NCBI GenBank assembly: GCA_903923175.1
Contig: CAIXWQ010000534.1
Location: 1 to 34,319 of the forward strand
DNA: 34,319 nucleotides
Source: an uncultured delta proteobacterium
GTDB lineage: Bacteria > Myxococcota_A > Polyangia > Polyangiales > JADJMO01
Direction of reading: 5' to 3'
In this document: piece by piece, positions 3,272 through 34,319 of the stretch
Position numbering within the stretch: position 1 is the first letter of the stretch
Layout of the letters: each line of letters begins with the position of its first letter
Notes under the pieces: generated by a model
What the model was told of the DNA's origin: nothing
What the model saw: the letters and a program-made list of their open reading frames with translations, nothing else
Databases searched by the model: none
Program-made: the position numbers and the translations under genes

Positions 3272-4165
3272 TCAGCCCGCGACGACGTCCGCCGGCCCGC
3301 GCTCCTCGCCGAGCACCACGTTGTCGATGAGCCGCGTCGAGCCGAACCGCACCGCGACGGCGAGCACCGCGCGGTCGTCGATCATGGAGCCGGCCGGGAA
3401 GGGGACGACCGAATCCGCGTTCGCCAGGGCGACGTAGTCGATCGAGGTCGCCACCGCCTCGATGGGCGCGCGCACCCGCGCGAGCAGGGCGTCGACGTGC
3501 CGCTCGCCCGCCTCGAACGCGCGCACCGCGGCGGCCAGGCCGGTCGGGATCGCGCGCGCCTTCGCGCGGTCGTCGGCCGAGAGGTAGACGTTGCGCGAGG
3601 AGCGGGCGAGCCCGTCGGCCTCGCGCTGGGTCGGGCAGGGGACGATTTCGACCGGCAGGAACAGGTCGCGCGCCATGCGTGAGACGACGCGCAACTGCTG
3701 GTAGTCCTTGCGACCGAACACGGCGACGCTGGGCCCGGCGACGAGGAAGAGCTTGGCGCAGATGGTCGCGACGCCTTCGAAGTGCGTCGGTCGGAACGCC
3801 CCTTCGAGGTGCTGGGACGTGGTCGACACGCGCAGCCGCGTCTCCTCGCCGGGCGGGTAGAGCACGCTCGGATCGCTCGGCGCGAAGATCAGGTCGACCC
3901 CCTCGCCGGCGCAGCGCGCGACGTCGGCCTCCAGCGTCCGCGGGTAGCGCGTGAAGTCCTCGTTCGGCCCGAATTGCGTCGGGTTCACGAAGATCGTCAC
4001 GACCACGAGCTGGGCGCGGCGCCTGGCCTCGCGGACGAGCGCGAGGTGCCCGTCGTGCAGCGCCCCCATCGTCGGCACCAGGCCCACCCGTAGCCCGCGC
4101 TCACGGGCGGCGGCCAGCTTCTCTCGCAGCGTCTCGACGTCGCGGACCACCAGCGGCTGTCCCAT
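3272..4165 (-). CDS. panC: PanC, pantothenate synthetase
   Basis: A 297-residue cytoplasmic ligase that joins pantoate and beta-alanine with ATP to make pantothenate, the precursor of coenzyme A. The nucleotide-binding motif [14 protein letters not shown] is at residues 31-44. It is followed by [26 protein letters not shown] and the KMSKS-equivalent segment RSSRNVYLS. Length and order of motifs are normal. The start is the ATG at 4165 (MGQPLVV); the longer open frame upstream runs antisense through the plus-strand genes and has no PanC-like content. It is the first gene of the panC-hisB-hisH-hisA-PLD run and is divergent from the CapA-family gene. No promoter could be picked out in the 156 nt between them. 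Confidence 0.95.
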
Positions 4166-27679: not shown

Positions 27680-28183
27680 TCACTTCGCCGGCTTGCCGCC
27701 GGCCCAGATGTCGTCGTCGGTGCCCGGCTTGCCGTCGGGGCCGTCGCTGCCGATCGAGGTGTCGCCGCCGGTCGTGCATACGATCCGGTACGGGTGGTTC
27801 CACGGATCGTTGACGTTCTGATCGCTCTTGAGCGACTTGTCCGCCTTGAGGGTCTCCAGCGTCGGGCACTCGCTGCTGCGATCCGGGTGATCGCCCTTCC
27901 ACCCCTCGACGATCGTCTGCAGCGTCTTCGCGTCGGTCGAGGCGGTCTTCTTCTGCGCTTCCTGGAACTTCGGCAGCGCGAAGATCGCCACGCCGCCCGC
28001 GATCATCGCGAGGATCGCGACGACGATCAGGACCTCGACGAGCGTCACGCCGCGCGCTCCGCCACGGCCGTCCTTCGGACGTCCTACGAGGGGGCGCCGG
28101 CTCCCCCTCGTGCTCCCCCATTTGCAGAGGGCTGCGCGGGCAATGGCGCCGATCGTCTTCGCGTGGTGCTCCTTCGGGGTCAT
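27680..28183 (-). CDS. gspG: GspG, major pseudopilin
   Basis: 167 residues. The start at 28183 is well supported by AAGGAG eight bases upstream. The leader is unusually long: 45 residues ending GARG, then VTLVEVLIVVAILAMIAGGV, with Glu at +5 (residue 50). After the helix (KFQEAQKKTASTDAKTLQTI) comes the compact C-terminal domain with DPWNHPYRIV and the calcium-site loop GSDGPDGKPGTDDDIW, the GspG hallmark. A cysteine pair (SSECP and RIVCT) may form a disulphide. GspG polymerises into the pseudopilus that pushes substrates through the secretin. The 79 nt between it and the upstream GspG-like gene may allow independent translation at a higher rate, as its ribosome site is the best in the operon. 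Confidence 0.93.
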   Translation of the reverse strand: MTPKEHHAKTIGAIARAALCKWGSTRGSRRPLVGRPKDGRGGARGVTLVEVLIVVAILAMIAGGVAIFALPKFQEAQKKTASTDAKTLQTIVEGWKGDHPDRSSECPTLETLKADKSLKSDQNVNDPWNHPYRIVCTTGGDTSIGSDGPDGKPGTDDDIWAGGKPAK

Positions 28184-28262: not shown

Positions 28263-28694
28263 CTACTCGATCGCGTCGAGGCCATAGGGTTCACCGTCGG
28301 GGCCGTCCGACGACAGATCGTACGTGCGCTCGGGCAGCCGGGCCGGGCAAGCGAAGCGCAGCGGACGCCGCCACGCGTCGCGCGGAAGAGCGCCGAGGTA
28401 CGGCGCGTGATCGCCGGGCGTCACCAGCTCCGCGAGGTCGCGCGGGCAGCGGCCGTGGTCGGCGCGGAACGCATCGACGGCCGCGCGCGCGTGCGTGAGC
28501 GTGGCTCGCGTGGTGCGCAGGTTGCGCGCGTCGCGGTTGCGCGCGTAGATCGCGTAGAACAGCGCCACCACGGCGGCGGCCAGGAGCCACGCCGTCGCGC
28601 GTCGACGGGGGAGCTGCAGCGCGCGCGCGACCGTCCGCCTCTCCCAGGGGAGGAAGATGGTCCGCTCTCGCTTCTTGCGCCCGAAGATCGCCAA
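28263..28694 (-). CDS. GspG-like membrane protein without prepilin peptidase site
   Basis: 143 residues from a TTG with GAGGGG eight bases upstream. The N-terminus is very basic (GRKKRER, RRTVARALQLPRRR), and one membrane helix lies at about 33-51 (ATAWLLAAAVVALFYAIYA). There is no GFTLxE site, no Glu5 and no cleavable leader. The periplasmic part nevertheless follows GspG: helix ARAAVDAFRADHG, then RCPRDLAELVTP, YLGALPRDAWRRPLRF and the calcium-loop-like LSSDGPDGEPYGLDAIE. It sits between gspF and gspG in the operon, 12 nt after the gspF stop. It may anchor or nucleate the pseudopilus, or be a diverged copy. The TTG start is the weakest point; no other in-frame start lies upstream before the gspF stop region. 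Confidence 0.8.
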   Translation of the reverse strand: MAIFGRKKRERTIFLPWERRTVARALQLPRRRATAWLLAAAVVALFYAIYARNRDARNLRTTRATLTHARAAVDAFRADHGRCPRDLAELVTPGDHAPYLGALPRDAWRRPLRFACPARLPERTYDLSSDGPDGEPYGLDAIE

Positions 28695-28706: not shown

Positions 28707-30143
28707 TCACTGGTTGAAGTCGTTCATCTGGATGAGCGGCATGAGGATCGAGAAGGCGATGAAGCCGACCGCGCCGCCCATGAGGACGATCATCATCGGC
28801 TCGAGCAGCGACGTGAGCGCCGTGATCCGGATCTCGACCGCCGATTCGTAGCTGTCGCTCACCGCCTCGAGCATGTTCTCGAGCTGCCCGGACTTCTCAC
28901 CGACCGCGATCATGTGCGTCACGATCGGCGGGAACTGCTTCGAGCGCTTGAGCGGCTCGGCGATGCTCTCACCCTCGCGGATCGAGTTGATGGCGTCCTC
29001 GACCACGCGCTCCAGCGCGGCGTTGCCGATGACCGCGCGCACGATGTCCATGGCCCGGAGCAGCTGCACGCCGCTGGCGAGCAGCGTCGAGAGCGTCTTG
29101 GCGAAGCGCGCGACCGCGATCATCTGGAACAGCGGCCCGAAGATCGGCATCCGCAGCAGCGCGCCGTCGAAGCGCACGCGGCCGTCGTCGGTGCGCAGCC
29201 ACGCGAGCAGCGAGCCGAGCGCCGCGCCGAGGAGCATGCCCGGCACCGCGGCGAGCACGAACCTCGTCGCCGACTCGCGCATCACCACCTGCAGGATCAG
29301 CAGGAAGCCGCCGATGGCGAGGCCCATGCTCGGCTTGCCGTTGCCGGCGGTGTTCTTCGCCTGCTGCACGCCCGCGGCGGGGCGCAGCGGCACGCTCGGC
29401 TTCACCGCGAGCATGTAGCCGGAGGCGCCGATCAAGGCGCCGGTCAGCAGGCCGTGCGAGATCGGCGACGAGAACGCGTCGGACACGCCGATGAGCACGG
29501 CCGTGTACCAGGGCAGGGCGCGGTCGAGCGACGCGAAGATCGTCGTGACCTTGGGCACCACGCCGATCATGAGCACGGTGATCAGGACCGACCCGATCAG
29601 GAGCATCAGGATCGGATAGGCGAGGGCGGCCATCACCTTCCCCTTGAGGCGCGCCTGCGTGTCCATGAAGCCCGCGAGCCGATCGAGCACGGTCTCGAGC
29701 GTGCCGGAGGCCTCGCCGGCCGCGACCATGTTCACGTAGAGCGTGGGGAACACGCCCGGGTGCTCCGCGAGCGCCGTCGCGAACGCGGTGCCCTCGTTGA
29801 TCTGCTGGCGCACGCTCGCGAGCACGCGCTTCAGCTCTTCCTTCTCGACCTGCTCGGTGAGCGCGCCGATCGCCTCCGCGAGCGGGATGCCAGCCTTCAC
29901 CAGGGTGGCGAGCTGTCGCGTCGTGATCGCGACGTCGCTGGTCGACGGCCGCTTGAGGAACGCGAAGAGGTTGATGTCCCGCGAGCGCTTCTCGGCCGCC
30001 GCGCGCGCCTCGGTGGCGTTGGTGAGGACGATCCCTTCACGACGCAGCGCCGCGCGCAGGCCCTTCGGGCTGTCGGCGTCGCGCACGCCGCGGACCTCCT
30101 TGCCCGAGGCGGCGGTGATCCCGCGGAACTGGTAGATGGACAT
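28707..30143 (-). CDS. gspF: GspF, inner-membrane platform protein
   Basis: 478 residues against about 400-405 in typical GspF. The N-terminal cytoplasmic region (MSIYQFRGITAASGKEVRG, then LRREGIVL) is followed by two T2SSF domains. The first is at about 75-200 (TRQLATLVKAGIPLAEAIGA, MVAAGEASGTLETVLDRLA). The second is at about 345-470 (FAKTLSTLLASGVQLLRAMD, MIAVGEKSGQLENMLEAVSD, LEPMMIVLMGGAVGFIAFSI). Between the domains (225-320) there are about three hydrophobic segments and a loop of low complexity instead of the single helix usual there. GspF is the polytopic membrane protein that couples GspE to pseudopilin assembly. It starts 15 nt after the gspE stop. Confidence 0.93.
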   Translation of the reverse strand: MSIYQFRGITAASGKEVRGVRDADSPKGLRAALRREGIVLTNATEARAAAEKRSRDINLFAFLKRPSTSDVAITTRQLATLVKAGIPLAEAIGALTEQVEKEELKRVLASVRQQINEGTAFATALAEHPGVFPTLYVNMVAAGEASGTLETVLDRLAGFMDTQARLKGKVMAALAYPILMLLIGSVLITVLMIGVVPKVTTIFASLDRALPWYTAVLIGVSDAFSSPISHGLLTGALIGASGYMLAVKPSVPLRPAAGVQQAKNTAGNGKPSMGLAIGGFLLILQVVMRESATRFVLAAVPGMLLGAALGSLLAWLRTDDGRVRFDGALLRMPIFGPLFQMIAVARFAKTLSTLLASGVQLLRAMDIVRAVIGNAALERVVEDAINSIREGESIAEPLKRSKQFPPIVTHMIAVGEKSGQLENMLEAVSDSYESAVEIRITALTSLLEPMMIVLMGGAVGFIAFSILMPLIQMNDFNQ

Positions 30144-30158
30144 CGTCGTCGGTCGACC

Positions 30159-31919
30159 TCAGTCGACCTCCTCCTGCGTCGCCGCGAGGACCTCTTCCAC
30201 GGAGGTCATCCCCGACAGCACCTTGCGGCCGCCGTCCTCGCGCATGTTGTCCATGCCGGCTTCCATCGCCGCGCGCCGGATCGCCGTCGCGTCGGCGTGC
30301 TTGAGGATGAGCCCGCGCACCGACTCATCGATCAGCATCATCTCGTAGATGCCGCGTCGGCCGCCGTAACCTGCGCCGCCGCACTCGTCGCACCCCTTGG
30401 GCTTGTAGAAGATCGGGCGCGTCCCCTCGGGCGGAAGCGGCGGATCGTAGGTCACGCCGCGCGGCGCGTAGGCGGCGCTCATCACGCGCGAGCGCTTCTT
30501 CGCTGCGGCCACCGGGTCCATGCCGAGCTGCTCTAGCTCGTAGTCGCTCGCCTCGTAGGGCTCCTTGCAGTGATCGCAGAGCTTGCGGACGAGGCGTTGC
30601 GCGAGGATGCCGATCATCGAGCTCGCGACCATGAACGGCTCGACGTCCATCTCGGTGAGGCGCGCCACGGCGCCGGCGGCGTCGTTGGTGTGGATCGTGG
30701 AGAGCACGAGGTGGCCGGTGAGCGACGCGTGCACCGCGATCTCGGCCGTCTCCTTGTCGCGGATCTCGCCGACCATGATCACGTCGGGATCCTGACGCAA
30801 GAACGCGCGCAGCGCCGACGCGAACGTGAGGCCGATCTTGGCGTTGACGTGGAGCTGGTGGATGCGCGGCAGCTCGTACTCGACCGGATCCTCGGCCGTG
30901 AGGATGTTGAGGTTCGGCTTGTTGATCCGGTTGAGGCACGCATACAGCGTGGTCGTCTTGCCGGCGCCGGTCGGGCCGGTCACGAGGATGATCCCGTGCG
31001 GCCGGTTGATCAGGTGGTCCATGAGCGCGTACTCGCGCCCGTAGAAGCCGAGATCGGGGAGATCCAAGAGCACCGAGCTCTTGTTGAGGAGGCGCATCAC
31101 GATGCGCTCGAAGCCGCGCGACGTCGGGATGGTCGAGACGCGGATGTCGACCCCCTTGCCGGCGATCTTGAGCGTGATGCGTCCGTCCTGCGGGAGGCGC
31201 TTCTCCGCGATGTTCAGCCCGCTCATGATCTTCACGCGGGCGACGATGTTCGGCATGAACGCCTTCGGCGCGCGCTTGGTCTCGTGCAGCTCGCCGTCGA
31301 TGCGGTAGCGGACGATGACCTCGCGCTCCTCGGGCTCGATGTGGATGTCGCTCGCCCGCCGCTTGCTCGCCTCGCTGAAGAGGTTGTTCACCCAGCGGAT
31401 GACCGGCGCGTCGTCGGTCGCGTCGATGATGTCGGTGAGCTCGTCGCCGGTCTCTTCCTGCTCCTTCTCGAGCTCGGCCTGGTTGTTCAGCCGCTCGTAG
31501 AACGAGTTGATGGCGTCGATGACCACGCCCGCGGGCGCCACGAAGACGTCGACCGGCTTGCCGAAGACGGCGCGCACGTCGTCCTGCGCGGCGACGTCGA
31601 GCGGGTCGGCCGCGACCATGCGGATGCGCTTCGCGTCCTCGCCGACCACGACGACTTTGTGCGCCTTGGCCCACTGGATCGGCAGGCGCGTCGCGACGTT
31701 GGTCTCGATGCGCGCGACGTCGAGCTTGTCGATGAAGGGGAGGCCGCACTCGTCGGCCAGCGCCTTCGCGATCGAGCCCTCGTCGGCGGCGCGGCTCGCG
31801 ACCGCGAGGTCGACGAGCGAGCCCCCCTTCTCGCGCTGCGCCGCGAGCAGCTCCTGCATGCGCGCCTCGGGCACGACCCCACGACGCGACAGGATCTCGC
31901 CGAGATACCGCTGCTCCAT
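30159..31919 (-). CDS. gspE: GspE, secretion ATPase
   Basis: 586 residues. An MshEN-type N-terminal domain (1-140; RYLGEILSRRGVVPEARMQE) binds GspL. The ATPase half has ASDIHIEPEEREVIVRYRID (189-208), the Walker A GPTGAGKTTTLY at 315-326, the Asp box NILTAEDPVEYEL (338-350), the Walker B region DPDVIMVGEIRD at 377-388 and the His box HASLTGHLVLSTIHTNDA (397-414). A zinc-type tetracysteine is present: C448 and C451, then C510 and C513. The 58 residues between the pairs are about twice the usual number. GspE hydrolyses ATP on the cytoplasmic face to drive pseudopilus growth. It starts 2 nt after the gspD stop. Confidence 0.97.
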   Translation of the reverse strand: MEQRYLGEILSRRGVVPEARMQELLAAQREKGGSLVDLAVASRAADEGSIAKALADECGLPFIDKLDVARIETNVATRLPIQWAKAHKVVVVGEDAKRIRMVAADPLDVAAQDDVRAVFGKPVDVFVAPAGVVIDAINSFYERLNNQAELEKEQEETGDELTDIIDATDDAPVIRWVNNLFSEASKRRASDIHIEPEEREVIVRYRIDGELHETKRAPKAFMPNIVARVKIMSGLNIAEKRLPQDGRITLKIAGKGVDIRVSTIPTSRGFERIVMRLLNKSSVLLDLPDLGFYGREYALMDHLINRPHGIILVTGPTGAGKTTTLYACLNRINKPNLNILTAEDPVEYELPRIHQLHVNAKIGLTFASALRAFLRQDPDVIMVGEIRDKETAEIAVHASLTGHLVLSTIHTNDAAGAVARLTEMDVEPFMVASSMIGILAQRLVRKLCDHCKEPYEASDYELEQLGMDPVAAAKKRSRVMSAAYAPRGVTYDPPLPPEGTRPIFYKPKGCDECGGAGYGGRRGIYEMMLIDESVRGLILKHADATAIRRAAMEAGMDNMREDGGRKVLSGMTSVEEVLAATQEEVD

Positions 31920-31921
31920 GG

Positions 31922-34319
31922 CTAGTTCTCGATGGTGACGGCGCGCGCGATCGGCGGCGGCGGCTTCACGATGCCCGGCGGCGCCGTCATCGGCATCGGC
32001 ACCGGCGTGGCGGGCTGGGGCGCGGCGCCGGGGTTCGAGTACCCCGCGCCGTTGCCGGGCGCCGGGGGGAGCTCGCTGATCGGCTTGCTCGCCTCGTGGC
32101 GCTTGACCTCCTTCGGGCGCGTCTGCTCCTCGAGGGCCGCCTTCTCCTCCTCGCGCATGTAGGCCTGGCGGATCTCCTCCACGAGCCCTCGCGTGCGCGA
32201 GTAGTCGACGTAGGGTTTCCACTCCTTGCTGTCGCCCGCGAAGACGAAGTAGCGGTCGAGGAACTCCTGCCGCTCCTCCATCTTGCGCTCGAAGATCGCG
32301 CGCAGGTCGGCGGGGTCTCGGATGACGTACGGCGTGAGGATCAGGAGCAGGTTGCGCTTCTGGTTGCGACGCGAGGTCTGCTTGAACAGCGCGCCGATGA
32401 TCGGGATGTCGCCGAGCACCGGGATCTTGGTCTCGTCGTTCGACACGAAGTCGCGCACGAGGCCGCCGATGACGATCGTCTGCTGGTCCTGGATGACGAC
32501 CTGGGTCTTCGCGTTGCGCTGGATGATGCGCGGGATGGTCGTCGCGCCCTGACCCGGCCCGAGCTCGCTGATCTCTTCGTCGATCTCGAGGCGCACCTCG
32601 TTCGAGTCGTTGATGTGCGGCGTGAGCTTGATCTTGGTGCCGACGTTCTGGCGGCTGATGCCGCCGAACGCGCCGCCGCCGCCGAGCCCGCCGAAGGCGC
32701 CGAGGCCGGCCGTCGCGCCGCTCGCGCCAGGCAGGCCGCCGAGGCCGCCGAGGCCGCCGAGCACCGAGGTCTGGAGCGGCACGTTCTCGCCGACGTTGAT
32801 CTCCGCGGCGACGTTGTCGGTCGCCATGATGTGCGGGGTCGAGAGCACGTTCGTGTCGCCGCTGGTGGTGACCGCCTGCAGCGCCACGCCGAAGGCCGGG
32901 ATGCTCACGCCGATGCCGGCGAGCGTGAGCAACGTGTTCGAGCGGACGCCGAGCGCGAGCCCCTGCAGCGAGCTCGGATCGGTGAGGTTCGGGAAGGTCG
33001 CCGAGCCCATCGCGTTGGAGCCGCCGAGGATGACCGACCCGTCGGGGCCGACCGAGTCGACGCTGTCGCCGCCGTGCCAGCTGACGCCGAGCTTGTTGGT
33101 GTGGTCGGTCGACACCTCCATGATGACCGCCTCGATGAAGACCTGGCGCCGCGCCTGGTCGAGACGATCGATCACGTTGCGCAGGCTCGCGTAGTCGCGG
33201 AGCGACGACGTGATGACGAGCGAGTTGGTCGACTTGTCCGCGGTGATGCGGATGGTCCCCTCGAACACCGCCGTCGTCGAAGGCTGCCCGGGCTGCTTCG
33301 GCGCCGCGGGCGCGCCGCCCTTGCCGCCGGTGATGTCGGTGAGCGTCTTGGCGAGCTCCTCCGCGTCGGCGTGCTGCAACGGCAGCACGTGGATCTCGCC
33401 TTCGCCCGTCATCGGCACGTCGAGCCGCTTGATGAGCTCGAGGATGCGCAGGTAGGCCTTCTCGGTGCCGATCACGACGATCGAGTTGGTGCGCTCCTCG
33501 GGGATGATCTTGGTGACGCGCGACTCGACCGCCTGCGAGCCCGGCCCGCGGCCGCCCGCGGGCGCAGGCGCGGCGCCCTTGCTGACGTCGAAGATCTCGT
33601 TGAGCTTCGTCGCGATCTCCTGCGCGCCGGAGTAGTGGATCGGCTCCACCCAGATCTGATCGCCGATGCCCGCGACGTCGATCTCTTCGACGATCGACAT
33701 CATGCGTTTGATGTTGGTGCCGGTGTCCGTGATGATCAGCAGGTTGCCCGGCGAGTAGATCGTGATGTCGCCGTCGCGCGACTTGAAGTGCGTGAGGACG
33801 TTCGCGACCTCGTCGGCCGTCACGTACTGCAGGCGATGCAGGCGCGTGATGTAGCGATCCTCCGCCGCGTTCGCCTGCCCCGGCCCGTAGATCGGCGTGG
33901 CCTGGGTCACGATGCCCGGGCTCTCCACGATCTTGAGGAATTTCCCGTGCGGGATGACCGTCAGGCCGTTGGTCTCGAGGATGGCGAGGAACGCCTGGTA
34001 GGCCTCGGCGACGGTGACCTTCTGAGGGGAGTAGATGGTCGCTTTGATGTTGCGGACCTTGCCGCCGAAGATGAAGCGCTTGCCCGTGAGCTGCCCCATC
34101 ACCTTGATCAGCTCGGGCAGGTCGGCGTCCTCCAGCGAGAACTGGACCTTGTAGCCGGCGGGGCGCGGCTCGAACTCGATCTCGTCCTTGAACTGCGGGA
34201 GGTTGCCGGTGTCGCCGGGCTTCTTTCCGCTCGCGGCGGCCGACGCGGCCGGCGCGGCGACCGCCGGCGGAGGCGGAACGGGCGTCGCCGGGGGCGGGGG
34301 GGGCGTGACGGGGGCGGCG
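31922..34319 (-). CDS. gspD: GspD, outer-membrane secretin (partial, 5' end beyond the edge)
   Basis: About 799 residues are visible and the frame is open to the right edge, so the start lies outside. The first visible residues are a Pro/Ala/Val-rich linker (about 34200-34319), then FKDEIEFEPRPAGYKVQFSL and the N0 domain (LPELIKVMGQLTGKRFIFGG). Three KH-like N domains follow, e.g. ITRLHRLQYVTADEVANVLT and VLPLQHADAEELAKTLTDIT. The secretin domain has RQVFIEAVIMEVSTDHTNKL, NVLSTPHIMATDNVAAEINV, the glycine-rich gate/lip segment near 32660-32790 and QQTIVIGGLVRDFVSNDETK, VPVLGDIPIIGALFKQTSRR. The C-terminal tail (31925-32220) is Pro/Ala-rich; an S-domain for pilotin binding is not recognisable. 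The protein forms the outer-membrane pore of the T2SS. Confidence 0.96.
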   Translation of the reverse strand, partial: AAPVTPPPPPATPVPPPPAVAAPAASAAASGKKPGDTGNLPQFKDEIEFEPRPAGYKVQFSLEDADLPELIKVMGQLTGKRFIFGGKVRNIKATIYSPQKVTVAEAYQAFLAILETNGLTVIPHGKFLKIVESPGIVTQATPIYGPGQANAAEDRYITRLHRLQYVTADEVANVLTHFKSRDGDITIYSPGNLLIITDTGTNIKRMMSIVEEIDVAGIGDQIWVEPIHYSGAQEIATKLNEIFDVSKGAAPAPAGGRGPGSQAVESRVTKIIPEERTNSIVVIGTEKAYLRILELIKRLDVPMTGEGEIHVLPLQHADAEELAKTLTDITGGKGGAPAAPKQPGQPSTTAVFEGTIRITADKSTNSLVITSSLRDYASLRNVIDRLDQARRQVFIEAVIMEVSTDHTNKLGVSWHGGDSVDSVGPDGSVILGGSNAMGSATFPNLTDPSSLQGLALGVRSNTLLTLAGIGVSIPAFGVALQAVTTSGDTNVLSTPHIMATDNVAAEINVGENVPLQTSVLGGLGGLGGLPGASGATAGLGAFGGLGGGGAFGGISRQNVGTKIKLTPHINDSNEVRLEIDEEISELGPGQGATTIPRIIQRNAKTQVVIQDQQTIVIGGLVRDFVSNDETKIPVLGDIPIIGALFKQTSRRNQKRNLLLILTPYVIRDPADLRAIFERKMEERQEFLDRYFVFAGDSKEWKPYVDYSRTRGLVEEIRQAYMREEEKAALEEQTRPKEVKRHEASKPISELPPAPGNGAGYSNPGAAPQPATPVPMPMTAPPGIVKPPPPIARAVTIEN

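Follow-up and report, generated by a model that had tools for sequence, protein, structure and literature searches.

A gene lying between gspF and gspG in the DNA analysed here may bear on how a T2SS, which has no retraction motor, holds its pseudopilus at the base, initiates it and limits its length. The window, by which we mean the whole stretch of 34,319 nucleotides, carries a T2SS operon on the minus strand at its right end: gspD, gspE, gspF, the gene in question (hereafter X), gspG-gspK and a PilM-like gspL. The original prediction, made from the sequence alone, described X as a GspG-like protein that could not be processed as a pseudopilin. Is X a pseudopilin, a remnant of one, or a subunit of another kind?

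Location of X in the T2SS operon

The predicted 143-residue reading frame between gspF and gspG was confirmed on the minus strand, with a TTG start and a TAG stop codon. Its start lies 12 nt 3' of the gspF stop codon, and 79 nt separate X from gspG. Complete operons of relatives read C-D-E-F-X-G-H-I-J-K-L. The parts of X and the neighbouring genes are listed in Table 1.

Table 1. Features of X and of adjacent T2SS genes, in window positions.
Feature	Position	Strand	Evidence or remark
Gene X, GspG-head protein with membrane anchor	28263..28694	-	ORF, Pfam, orthologues
GAGGGG, Shine-Dalgarno-like site of X, overlapping the gspF stop codon	28703..28708	-	sequence
X residues 13-20, IFLPWERR, cytoplasmic motif	28635..28658	-	family profile [VIL]x[LF]PWERR
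X residues 33-51, predicted transmembrane segment, uncleaved, N-in, without Glu5	28542..28598	-	hydropathy; AlphaFold helix 30-80
X residues 52-143, GspG-like periplasmic head	28266..28541	-	Pfam T2SSG, AlphaFold, Foldseek against PDB, profile-profile
X Cys83	28446..28448	-	invariant 55/55; Cys116 the partner in a probable disulfide
X Cys116	28347..28349	-	invariant 55/55
X S129-E143, calcium-loop-like C-terminus	28266..28310	-	calcium-ligand Asp not conserved across the family
gspF, 5' neighbour of X	28707..30143	-	TIGR02120 and PF00482
gspG, ordinary major pseudopilin with GVTLVE	about 27680..28183	-	N_methyl and T2SSG; start site chosen in the analysis
gspD	34102..31922	-	T2SS operon at right end of window
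gspE	32222..30159	-	T2SS operon at right end of window

Similarity of the X head to GspG

Residues 55-139 of X matched Pfam T2SSG (PF08334) at 36.6 bits (5e-9; cut-off 21), bearing out the claim of a GspG-like periplasmic part, and the match was found in 54 of 55 X orthologues. The operon's own GspG scored lower than X, at 28.9 bits. Against TIGR01710, X reached 30.7 bits, below the curated cut-off of 88.85; this miss is a weak argument about X, because the operon's own GspG (40.4 bits) misses the cut-off too. In the GspG of the order (the window's gspG at 27680-28183 and its relatives) the cysteine pair is invariant and the head loop is shortened, and as a result of these features its T2SSG score falls below that of X and its score lies far below the NCBI GspG cut-off.

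Structure prediction agreed with the profile match. An AlphaFold model built from the alignment of 55 orthologues was confident (mean pLDDT 87.5), with one continuous helix (residues 30-80) that leads into a small beta head. The best 13 Foldseek matches to the model in the PDB were all GspG, PulG or EpsG, the top structural matches being 3g20, 3gn9, 4lw9 and 5wda, and a sequence-profile search of the PDB with X returned GspG matches exclusively. Profile-profile comparison of X with the order's GspG gave an E value of 5e-18 over 91 columns. Because this alignment begins only where the membrane helix ends, the head of X is homologous to GspG and the N-terminal part is not.

The X head retains the canonical GspG loop (YLxxxPxDxWG ... 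CPG), which has been lost from the GspG encoded beside X and kept in the GspG of relatives that lack X. Cys83 and Cys116 were invariant in X and the same pair was invariant in the neighbouring GspGs; the two residues probably form a disulfide. The heads differed in charge: X was near neutral (mean net charge +0.5) and GspG acidic (mean -6.5), and the X head was the more positive in 51 of 53 neighbouring pairs. Such a difference in charge is compatible with a contact between the two proteins.

The C-terminus of X reads SSDGPDGEPYGLDAIE, and its likeness to the GspG calcium loop stood as originally described. The Asp residues near the C-terminus of GspG, which we take to be calcium ligands, were not conserved, however. 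GspG has a pair of Asp residues at the C-terminus, the second of which was Asp in 0/55 X sequences versus 49/51 GspGs; the Asp of GPDG was present in 16/55 versus 51/51. Judged from the alignment, the X loop is only calcium-loop-like, with no conserved calcium site.

Absence of pseudopilin processing features

Pfam N_methyl matched none of the 55 X orthologues and all 53 neighbouring GspGs. A regular-expression search for the prepilin peptidase site, G(F/M/V)T(L/I)xE with cleavage after the G, or for GFTLxE-like sequences, likewise found none in the 55 orthologues; the GspG adjoining X in the window carries GVTLVE. An equivalent of Glu5 was sought as an acidic residue in the best 19-residue membrane window: 51 of 55 orthologues had none and four had one. 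The claim that X lacks a GFTLxE site, Glu5 and a cleavable leader thus held across the family. Cleavage by signal peptidase I was considered and rejected, as small-residue patterns near the helix end occurred inconsistently (33/55).

The N-terminus of X is basic, about 32 residues long and positively charged in all 55 orthologues. The basic flank of a membrane helix lies on the cytoplasmic side (the positive-inside rule), and the N-terminus is for this reason predicted to be cytoplasmic. Subunits dock into type 4 filaments by means of Glu5 and of the N-terminus that prepilin peptidase sets free (PMC10191384). Lacking both, X should remain in the membrane. The original description of a fixed membrane protein with a GspG head was upheld for the head and for the missing processing features, and the fixed topology is what we infer from them: X would consist of a GspG head carried by an N-in anchor that cannot be processed. 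By the processing-site and Glu5 tests, applied here to sequences, X is not a GspG pseudopilin, despite its head. A T2SSG match is accordingly not always the mark of a polymerising pseudopilin, which is a warning for annotation.

X shares with GspG/PulG/XcpT (PF08334, TIGR01710) the head, the long first helix, the gene position and the calcium-loop-like C-terminus. Unlike them, it lacks a class III signal peptide, Glu5 and conserved calcium ligands, and it adds a cytoplasmic motif. We found no published description of X in the open-access literature; subscription papers and database annotations may differ. The one example of a second or uncleaved GspG found in that literature was the mitochondrial T2SS-like system, in which heteroloboseans and malawimonads have two GspG copies (PMC8134430). 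These paralogues resemble X in that GspG is paired within one system. They differ in that they belong to eukaryotes, carry sequences for mitochondrial targeting and have gained a novel domain at the C-terminus; the paper does not present them as fixed anchors that escape processing (PMC8134430).

Distribution and selection

The original prediction raised the question of whether relatives carry the same gene between gspF and gspG, and they do. X was found in 54 of the 57 genomes of the order (37 of 39 genera), and the gene order F-X-G was kept in 52 of those 54. Two of the three genomes without X also lacked GspG. In the third (G026, 99% complete) gspF is followed directly by gspG, which indicates that X can be lost. 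In a survey of the phylum, full-length X was confined to the order. A class-wide survey recorded X in the sister family f17 (many genera), in f62 and f57 and probably in f55, and gspF-gspG without X in f14, f16, f54, f58 and f59.

Pairwise dN/dS of X was about 0.02-0.32 by a crude method, which indicates purifying selection. Neither observation that could have overturned the original prediction was made: the modelled head resembles GspG, and close relatives keep the gene under purifying selection. The lowest value, about 0.02, was that of G014 and G019 of family f11, with dS saturated; other pairs gave 0.09-0.32. In both f11 genomes (loci L128 and L129) a break in the operon separates X from gspG: X now adjoins rnc (ribonuclease III) and gspG lies on another contig. 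In G014, X is separated from gspF as well. That f11 might have X without GspG was ruled out, since both genomes contain a normal gspG elsewhere; a recoded TGA in f11 gspG was also rejected, the TGA being the terminator of the gene. The class-wide distribution, like the LPWERR motif, the cysteine pair, the loss of calcium ligands and the retention of the loop, goes beyond what the original prediction contained.

Origin of X and other anchored GspG heads

In a tree of the heads, X formed one clade (SH-aLRT 84), and a second tree gave this clade, the long-branched L210 excepted, a support of 94. The deep forks of these trees are soft because the alignment has few columns. On this evidence X is the product of an old gspG duplication, with a single origin for most of its members. 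Class members without X have both the CPG loop and the pair of cysteines in their GspG, so these features predate the duplication.

GspG heads on other anchors were also observed. L123 (G077, contig C137, about 3372-3780, minus strand) encodes a near-identical second GspG head with a new N-terminal hydrophobic segment directly 3' of gspG. At L120 (G091, contig C27, about 3437-3992, minus strand) a GspG-head gene without a prepilin site also lies directly 3' of gspG. L122 (G053, contig C35), a second locus in its genome, has GspG-head genes in tandem, none with a full prepilin site; two of these heads are very close to that of the genome's own GspG. L109 encodes a further GspG head on a non-pilin anchor. 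All four loci resemble X in that the GspG head has no N_methyl match and follows another kind of hydrophobic segment at the N-terminus; they differ in lacking the PWE motif and are not orthologues. By the tree these genes are recent duplications, independent of X: the heads of L120, L123 and two of L122 branched with the GspG of their own genomes, and the conversion of GspG to an anchored head has therefore happened several times. At L200 (G283, contig C88) an X-like head gene follows gspG rather than preceding it, and its placement in the tree is unsure.

The cytoplasmic motif and its resemblance to PilN

The cytoplasmic segment of X carries a motif, [VIL]x[LF]PWERR, in which P was present in 51, W in 53 and E in 50-51 of the 55 orthologues. 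It lies 11-19 residues, mostly 18, before the membrane helix. Across the six reading frames of the window, a motif of this type occurred once, in X. It is altered or missing in f17, G005 and G032; the f17 proteins have [IV][LV]LGxKRR-like sequences (IVLGEKRRR-like) at its place.

The motif resembles the N-terminal PilM-docking peptide of PilN. PilN has its binding site for PilM in the cytoplasmic part, and PilMN is the counterpart of GspL (PMC4471445). In PDB entry 5eou, PilM carries the fused PilN peptide MARINLLPWREE, and the PilN of the window's genome begins MIRVNLLPRRR. PilN of type IV pili is similar to X in arrangement: its cytoplasmic N-terminus is short, and a hydrophobic-LPW peptide lies some 15-20 residues ahead of a single membrane helix. 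The periplasmic domain of X is instead a GspG head; T2SSG was the sole Pfam match of X and its orthologues, with no PilN-type periplasmic domain. The likeness between the peptides is short and the register is shifted, from I-N-L-L-P in PilN to [VI]-x-[LF]-P in X.

Because the X peptide resembles the PilN peptide bound by PilM, the cytoplasmic PilM-like domain of GspL would be the first candidate for its partner. Docking of X on GspL is a proposal by analogy, weakened by the shifted register and by GspL's own junction, [IL][ND]LR[KRQ]G, which may already fill the PilM groove. Since GspL retains this junction, we ruled out that X supplies a lost one in trans.

Possible functions of X

The explanation that we favour, possible though short of probable, is that X would be a dedicated, fixed T2SS subunit descended from the gspG duplication, tethered to the platform and engaging the base of the pseudopilus. 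It draws on the sequence features and the structural model, the gene order in relatives, the distribution of X and its retention outside the operon, purifying selection, the likeness to the PilN peptide and the charges of the heads. Against it stand the shifted register of that likeness, the junction kept by GspL, the altered or missing motif in f17, G005 and G032, and the loss of X in G026. Unable to leave the membrane, X would remain with the assembly platform. There its helix and GspG-shaped head could touch either the growing base or GspG monomers as they arrive, and the cytoplasmic peptide would tether X to the assembly machine. Its most likely effect would be to hold or seat the base between additions, and the next most likely to cap it and so limit length. 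We infer both the partner of X and its role as holder, nucleator or brake. X may offer a probe of the base interface: a natural copy of GspG, predicted not to polymerise and to stay in the inner membrane, encoded in the operon and conserved both within the order and beyond it. A bolder form of the same idea, that a pseudopilin has become a permanent platform subunit with a PilN-like tether, seating or capping the base and so setting the length of the pseudopilus, and that this solution arose on more than one occasion within the phylum, seems somewhat unlikely.

X might instead act as an adaptor whose head binds GspC, the N-domains of GspD, minor pseudopilins or cargo rather than the pseudopilus. 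The sequences suggest this in one respect, that the X head keeps the GspG loop lost from the GspG of the same genomes, as if an ancestral GspG task had been split. The loss of the loop was apparently one or a few nested events, however, and its association with X consequently has little independent weight; we think an adaptor unlikely.

Less likely again is a membrane chaperone or reservoir that would hold GspG monomers before assembly, in the manner of GspM and without contact to the filament. The translational coupling between gspF and gspG in many genomes, where start and stop codons overlap by 4 nt, and the near-neutral X head beside an acidic GspG head would suit such a protein; the unlinking of X from gspG in f11 and the presence of a PilM-like GspL argue against it.

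Could X be an unusual pseudopilin, processed by another route and incorporated into the filament, perhaps at the base? The modelled continuous, pilin-like helix with a GspG head would allow it. The basic N-terminus with its conserved motif would have to be removed or passed through the membrane, however, and with no cleavage motif in the family, a helix mostly free of acidic residues and the calcium ligands lost, we hold this to be improbable.

That X is a functionless, diverged leftover of the gspG duplication, which the original prediction had allowed, would fit the loss in G026 and the long branches of a few copies (L061, L062), but it is effectively excluded by a single clade that extends through the order into further families, by invariant residues and low dN/dS, and by the retention of X outside the operon in f11.

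GspC in the order

A GspC-like gene was found 5' of gspD in eight of nine relative operons examined; the ninth contig (L139) stops within gspD. As this gene exists separately in relatives and X had no T2SSC match in Pfam, we rejected X as a substitute for a missing GspC. The genome that contains the window, like most relatives, has no GspC that Pfam T2SSC recognises. In nearly all genomes of the order GspC (for example at L131 and L132) is too diverged for this profile, and annotation would therefore report it as missing.
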